64,000 nt of DNA from Cellulosimicrobium protaetiae (GTDB taxonomy: Bacteria > Actinomycetota > Actinomycetes > Actinomycetales > Cellulomonadaceae). A program made the position numbers and the translations under genes. This document shows positions 7,450 through 7,896 of this stretch, piece by piece. The notes under the pieces are model-generated. The model was given only the letters and a program-made list of their open reading frames with translations. It searched no databases and was not told the DNA's origin. The stretch covers positions 2,604,001-2,668,000 of the forward strand of contig NZ_CP052757.1 in assembly GCF_009708005.2 (NCBI RefSeq). The letters run 5' to 3'. Position 1 is the stretch's first letter, and each line of letters begins with the position of its first letter.

Positions 7450-7512
7450 CCGCCGCAGGAGAACCCTGGTCGGTCGAGGTAGAACCCTGGTTGGCCGAGG
7501 TAGAACTGTGGT
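7450..7512 (+). repeat. Left array: three tandem 21 bp repeats, forward orientation
   Basis: Units at 7450-7470, 7471-7491 and 7492-7512 share the core GAGGTAGAACCCTGGT (the first is degenerate at its 5' half). A further weak match lies just upstream near 7437-7449. The array begins directly after the multicopper oxidase stop. Confidence 0.9.
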
Positions 7513-7542
7513 CATTCCCGACGGCGTGTGGTCGCTCTGGGT

Positions 7543-7641
7543 GGTCGGGGTGGGTGGTGGTGCCGCGTCTACCATCCGCCGCTCGTTCCTCGCGGCTCCC
7601 GCCAGGCCCGCCACGACGCGGCACCACCACCCACCCCGACC
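7543..7641. repeat. Perfect 27 bp inverted repeat with 45 bp loop
   Basis: Bases 7543-7569 are the exact reverse complement of 7615-7641. The arms start GGTCGGGGTGGGTGGTGG and are very G-rich on one strand and C-rich on the other. A transcript would fold into a very stable hairpin. It lies between the left and right 21 bp repeat arrays. Confidence 0.92.
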
Positions 7642-7715
7642 CGCGTCGTCTCACCCTGGTCTTGGCGCACCCGGGCGACTGCCCGTGGGGCCGGGCTCGT
7701 CTTCGTCCTCGCGTC

Positions 7716-7750
7716 GCCTCGCCTCGCCTCGCCTCGCCTCGCCTCGCCTC
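7716..7750 (+). repeat. Seven tandem copies of GCCTC
   Basis: Pentamer GCCTC repeated seven times without error, preceded by a GCGTC variant at 7711. It is non-coding and likely prone to slippage. Confidence 0.95.
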
Positions 7751-7770
7751 TCTCGGGCCGCACTCGGGGG

Positions 7771-7896
7771 ACCACGGTTCTACCTCGCCTCACCAGGGTT
7801 CTATCTCGCGCTACCTGAGTTCTACCTCGGCCGACCAGGGTTCTGTCTCGCGCGACCAGGGTCCTACCTCGGCTCACCAAGAATCGGCCTCGGTGT
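7771..7896 (-). repeat. Right array: six tandem 21 bp repeats, inverted orientation
   Basis: Six units of exactly 21 bases begin at 7771, 7792, 7813, 7834, 7855 and 7876. The consensus is ACCAGGGTTCTACCTCG plus four variable bases, the reverse complement of the left array units. The last unit is the most degenerate. With the left array it brackets about 258 bases holding the 27 bp inverted repeat and the GCCTC tract. I see no plausible gene in 7435-7950. Confidence 0.92.

Follow-up and report, generated by a model that had tools for sequence, protein, structure and literature searches.

Extragenic repeats of the GTAG-tagged REP/BIME superfamily occur in hundreds of copies per genome, in a palindromic arrangement with a bias towards gene 3' ends and convergent intergenic regions (PMC3733652, PMC2817692). 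The repeat islands described here share all of these properties, including GTAG. However, REP units are imperfect palindromes of 20-40 bp that alternate in orientation, whereas the units found here are not palindromic, stand in + + + - - - blocks with an exact 21-bp phase, occur in a genus without RAYT transposase and enclose a second hairpin family at the apex. The pneumococcal BOX elements (PMC3049150) are likewise modular, with a variable number of tandem units and enrichment between convergent genes, but their tandem modules lie in the middle, as boxA-(boxB)n-boxC, while here the tandem arrays form the inverted arms. Inverted ends made of short tandem repeats, with a variable or missing centre, are also typical of eukaryotic foldback transposons (e.g., PMC4079207, PMC3573991); in contrast, the present islands are bacterial, their apex module is an independent family, and neither a transposase nor a target duplication was found. 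The hairpin within that module, hereafter hairpin A, resembles the Rickettsia palindromic elements (PMC10969869) in occurring both in frame within genes and between them, but differs in sequence and taxon, and has invariant loops, almost freely varying stems and copies on either strand. A G+C-rich hairpin is shared with intrinsic terminators, but no T run is visible behind the arrays of the window. We regard the islands as an actinobacterial, RAYT-free counterpart of REP/BIME with a strict architecture.

The window, i.e., the whole 64,000-nucleotide stretch that was analyzed (G000:C1:2604001-2668000), comes from a 4.78 Mb genome in two contigs (G000). Its main island is flanked by a multicopper oxidase gene and an M20 peptidase gene, as the earlier note had described, and the following features were identified:

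7455-7512, + strand: forward array of three 21-bp units (7455, 7476, 7497), pointing to the centre
7513-7526, + strand: junction CATTCCCGACGGCG, a degenerate copy of CGTGCCCGACGGCG
7543-7641, + strand: hairpin A, with perfect 27-bp outer arms (7543-7569/7615-7641)
7570-7614, + strand: loop core of hairpin A, TACCATCC-GCCGC-TCGTTCCTC-GCGGC-TCCCGCCAGGCCCGCCAC
~7710-7752, + strand: CGCCT (GCCTC) tract, in the variable distal part of the module
7771-7891, - strand: inverted array of five clear units and one very degenerate unit (7876), pointing to the centre
2681-2738, no strand assigned: second, compact family member, GAGGTAGAGGCGTGGT-CATG-ACCACGCCTCTACCTC, perfectly palindromic and flanked by convergent genes

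The forward array begins 20 bp past the multicopper oxidase stop codon, and the inverted array, also in 21-bp register, stops ahead of the M20 peptidase start. The count of three forward and six inverted units given in the earlier note held up, with the sixth inverted unit very degenerate. Its statement that all units carry the core was an overstatement, because unit 7876, although in register, has five mismatches and only unit 7476 matches GAGGTAGAACCCTGGT exactly; the eight units at 7455, 7476 and 7497 (+) and at 7771, 7792, 7813, 7834 and 7855 (-) have 0-3 mismatches. The 258 bases between the arrays (7513-7770) do contain the reported 27-bp inverted repeat, with arms that are 100% complementary and 45 bp apart, as well as the GCCTC tract. 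A CRISPR array had rightly been dismissed: the units are joined by linkers of 4-5 bp, not by unique spacers of about 25-40 bp. Folding of the island strand was far above that of shuffled sequences (z -9.3). Ten unit matches were found in the window, including those at 2702/2722, compared to 0.12 expected from shuffles. In the compact island at 2681-2738, the right-hand gene uses the TAG as its stop codon. This island has the core variant AGGCG, which differs from the main consensus.

Allowing three mismatches or fewer, we found the 16-bp core 266 + 253 times in the genome (about 519), compared to 8 + 5 (13) for a reversed-pattern control, corresponding to an estimated 100 islands. The unit is not confined to the window, and the dispersed intergenic family that had been proposed is real. 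The unbiased logo of interior units is CGAGGTAGAACCSTGGT followed by a variable 4-bp linker; it is asymmetric, and the unit itself is no palindrome. Conservation is at least 95% at positions 0-2, 6-10 and 14-16, and the remaining positions are two-state. At ≤1 mismatch, the core was present in 18 of 99 relatives; the other genus members had 0 to 219 copies each, and copies outside the genus were few. Between close species the number ranges from 0 to 260. A search for GAGGTAG at 21-bp intervals, with any core allowed, gave at least 10 occurrences in 13 of the 16 other genus genomes and 0 to 6 in G003, G013 and G014. Alternative cores, e.g., GAGGTAGTACC, are used by G007, and by G012 at the M20 locus. 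Several contigs of the draft genome G004 (C2, C3, C4, C5, C7, C17 and C18) start inside unit arrays, which probably means that islands are undercounted in draft assemblies. Literature searches on Cellulosimicrobium repeats, on actinobacterial REP sequences and with the sequences themselves yielded no description of the repeat, and neither the libraries nor the papers that were searched contained the combination of array and apex hairpin.

The architecture was analyzed in ≈0.97 Mb of the same genome, covered by 40 systematically sampled stretches of 20 kb together with targeted loci and the window. This sample contained 55 islands of at least two units, 40 of them two-armed, 11 with only + units and 4 with only - units. 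In every one of the 40 two-armed islands the + block came first and the - block second, with no alternation. Unit spacing was exactly 21 bp in 260 of 279 cases, a figure that favours regularity to some degree, since the search accepted the extension of an array only at steps of 20-22 or 41-43 bp. Inter-arm gaps were bimodal, at ≤12 bp in 10 islands and 169-761 bp in 30, with none in between. Exactly one hairpin A (~95 bp) was present in each of the 30 filled islands and none in the 10 compact ones, which form perfect or near-perfect hairpins. The distance from hairpin A to the inner end of one array was 59-64 bp, and in one case 82 bp. In the filled islands inspected, CGTGCCCGACGGCG or a variant borders the proximal array, and an inverted copy ends several of the longer modules.

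Gene calls came from a codon model that had been trained on the genome itself and were not curated; on these calls, 53 islands could be placed, of which 25 lie in convergent, 26 in tandem and 2 in divergent intergenic regions. The background of intergenic regions of at least 30 bp comprises 84 convergent, 276 tandem and 120 divergent ones. Gene 3' ends adjoin 51 of the 53 islands, mostly with less than 30 bp between array edge and stop codon; start codons are farther away. On about 16 stop-codon sides the array edge falls at exactly -7, such that the TAG within GAGGTAG is the neighbouring gene's own stop codon. In the background, only 10% of stop codons are TAG.

Within an array, neighbouring units are 77% identical, compared to 75.5% for units taken from different islands. 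Linkage between variable positions is mostly absent, except for 11 with 12. The arms of one island are slightly more alike than those of different islands (0.763 vs. 0.751, p 0.003). At variable position 12, the match between partner units of compact islands is 0.44, compared to 0.64 for non-partners. The units resemble sites that each keep to a consensus individually, rather than products of recent local duplication. This consensus has shifted between close species: the genome of the window has 147 AACC to 6 AGCC units (A9 147:6), and G005 has 19:207, a shift that was also seen at orthologous islands. Homogenization by copying could also produce such a genome-wide shift.

At the slot between the multicopper oxidase and M20 peptidase genes, filled islands are present in G000, G005 and G001, and eight relatives have no units. 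Several of the unit-free relatives carry other short hairpins there, of the GAGCATG or GAGCAGG type; hairpins CCGAGCATG...CATGCTCGG and GTCGAGCAGG...CCTGCTCGAC were observed between these genes at loci L131, L133, L137, L138, L135 and L136. At L046 the corresponding slot holds a compact array, with flanks only 77-89% identical. Switches between the filled and compact states were seen at the islands at 748497 (compared with L035) and 1097795 (L038/L039), and at 1057979, which is compact in the window's own genome (compared with L235/L236). Most comparison loci were fetched by unit or hairpin A, which biases the frequencies of these states but not the existence of both. The base form of the island is a compact palindrome of + then - units, with a loop of ≤12 bp, just behind stop codons, and the apex module of 169-761 bp with its single hairpin A is present or absent at orthologous sites. 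A tree of the M20 peptidase, made for dating the window island, had no resolution inside the close clade.

Hairpin A forms a family of its own, spread over the order, in which the loops are invariant and the stems vary but stay complementary. A covariance model found it in at least 21 of 297 genomes of the order, in at least 12 genera; these counts are minimal, as no more than 14 candidates were scored per genome. Among the matches listed, the named records were mostly Cellulosimicrobium, the others being Luteimicrobium, Actinomyces, Antribacter, Isoptericola and Oerskovia, so that the host most likely belongs to Cellulosimicrobium or a near neighbour. Three segments, TACCATCC, TCGTTCCTC and TCCCGCCAGGCCCGCCAC, are retained in the aligned copies, whereas both stems, the outer one (~25 bp) and the inner one, vary, with 96 different innermost stem sequences among 168 copies. 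In 15 aligned copies, 26 of 31 pairs had changed on both sides (82 double vs. 2 one-sided cells). Mismatches in distinct, well-paired stems were G.T in 17 and A.C in 11 cases, with no clear difference; this replaces an earlier, less strict count of 25 and 26. Fourteen of the solitary copies tested occur in frame within ORFs, 7 in the sense and 7 in the antisense direction, and in tandem islands the orientation of hairpin A relative to the genes is mixed. The lack of a clear wobble preference, the occurrence on both strands of genes and the mixed orientation do not favour an RNA-level role for hairpin A, and this covariation pattern points to maintenance at the DNA level. We considered that hairpin A might capture arbitrary pre-existing terminators, but dropped this idea: distinct 5' arms share positional composition, with an identity of 0.424, compared to 0.371 when shuffled. 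A comparison with Rfam gave no curated family, either for the island or for the hairpin A copies of other genera, and only chance-level miRNA matches. One copy, at L172 (~1485-1600), was checked by alignment: it lies in frame and antisense in an HrpA-type helicase gene and occupies a linker that relatives have in a shorter form.

We tentatively interpret the islands as gene-end palindromic arrays of putative protein-binding sites that would form a two-way barrier, with a non-autonomous palindromic element at the apex. From the pattern of constraint, our best guess is that the array consists of binding sites, each unit being a putative site for a host DNA-binding protein. RNA polymerase coming from either flanking gene would meet the units in one direction, GAGGTAG first, and with this head-to-head order the array would work as a transcription-end barrier or insulator in both directions. 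The module would be a non-autonomous element that prefers the apex of such palindromes and is mobilized by some enzyme. The non-autonomous palindromic element suggested in the earlier note thus survives for the central hairpin, which comes and goes at the apex as a family of its own. Weighing against this interpretation are the 15 one-armed islands among the 55 and the small excess of similarity between arms of the same island (p 0.003). No target-site duplication and no autonomous partner of the module were found in the islands and comparison loci examined. That a host protein has several hundred 21-bp sites at gene ends, with a specificity that shifts genome-wide, and that an order-wide mobile hairpin with stems rewritten yet complementary inserts at the apex of other palindromes, appears rather doubtful as a full account.

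A strong rival remains, although we consider it somewhat unlikely: the whole island might be a selfish, foldback-like, non-autonomous transposon with tandem-repeat inverted ends, mobilized by a transposase and merely tolerated at 3' ends. Variable-number tandem arrays as inverted ends and a variable or absent centre fit this architecture, as do the copy numbers of 0 to 260 in close species, the eight relatives without units in the window's slot and the same location bias of REP- and BOX-type repeats (PMC3733652, PMC3049150). The location does little to separate the two: parasitic repeats that simply survive best at gene 3' ends would show the same bias, a point argued for pneumococcal repeats (PMC3049150), and the convergent bias is expected under both the barrier and the selfish readings. 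However, islands elsewhere are positionally conserved across species, a compact array occupies the window's slot at L046 despite its diverged flanks, and units show no rank-by-rank likeness between islands, as copied islands would. Presence and absence differ between species, but neither target duplication nor enzyme was found; the genus has no Y1 transposase, and modules of 169-761 bp lack the room for a typical transposase gene. If mobilization were by RAYT (TnpA-REP), the islands would be classical REP/BIME elements, which we consider highly improbable in spite of the GTAG in the unit and the hundreds of extragenic copies at 3' ends: RAYT/Y1 transposases (PF01797) were detected in none of 17 genus genomes, with positive controls, and the units are neither palindromic nor alternating. 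The REP/BIME likeness drawn in the earlier note is thus correct for location and palindromy but does not extend to REP/RAYT.

Alternatively, the arrays might act at the RNA level, with the arms, once transcribed, pairing into a long hairpin that would stop transcription or shield the 3' ends of mRNAs coming from either side. The 3'-end location, the convergent enrichment and the very stable fold, with compact forms being perfect or near-perfect hairpins, would be explained in this way. Yet arm partners match no better than non-partners at position 12, about a quarter of the islands are one-armed, no T run is visible behind the window's arrays and the arms of filled islands lie 169-761 bp apart. 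Hairpin A itself has no clear wobble bias and no strand preference inside genes. We consider such a device improbable, and return to the putative protein-bound barrier with its presumably mobile apex module as the preferred reading. Unit consensus, arm number and apex module vary independently at orthologous sites of close species, which makes the question of selfish repeat or gene-end device testable.

At L075 (~1655-2965; G000:C1 ~2288700-2290010), a 405-aa transposase gene with inverted ends, presumably IS30-like from our reading of it, lies inside the inverted array of another island. This locus was considered as an autonomous copy of the element and rejected, as the transposase gene has simply landed in an inverted array. 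The variable part of the longer modules also contains, at L015, L020, L023 and in other filled islands, a recurrent and conserved hairpin-like block (CGGTGGGGGTGGGCTCGGATGCGAAGGGGCG...CCACCCCCACCG).
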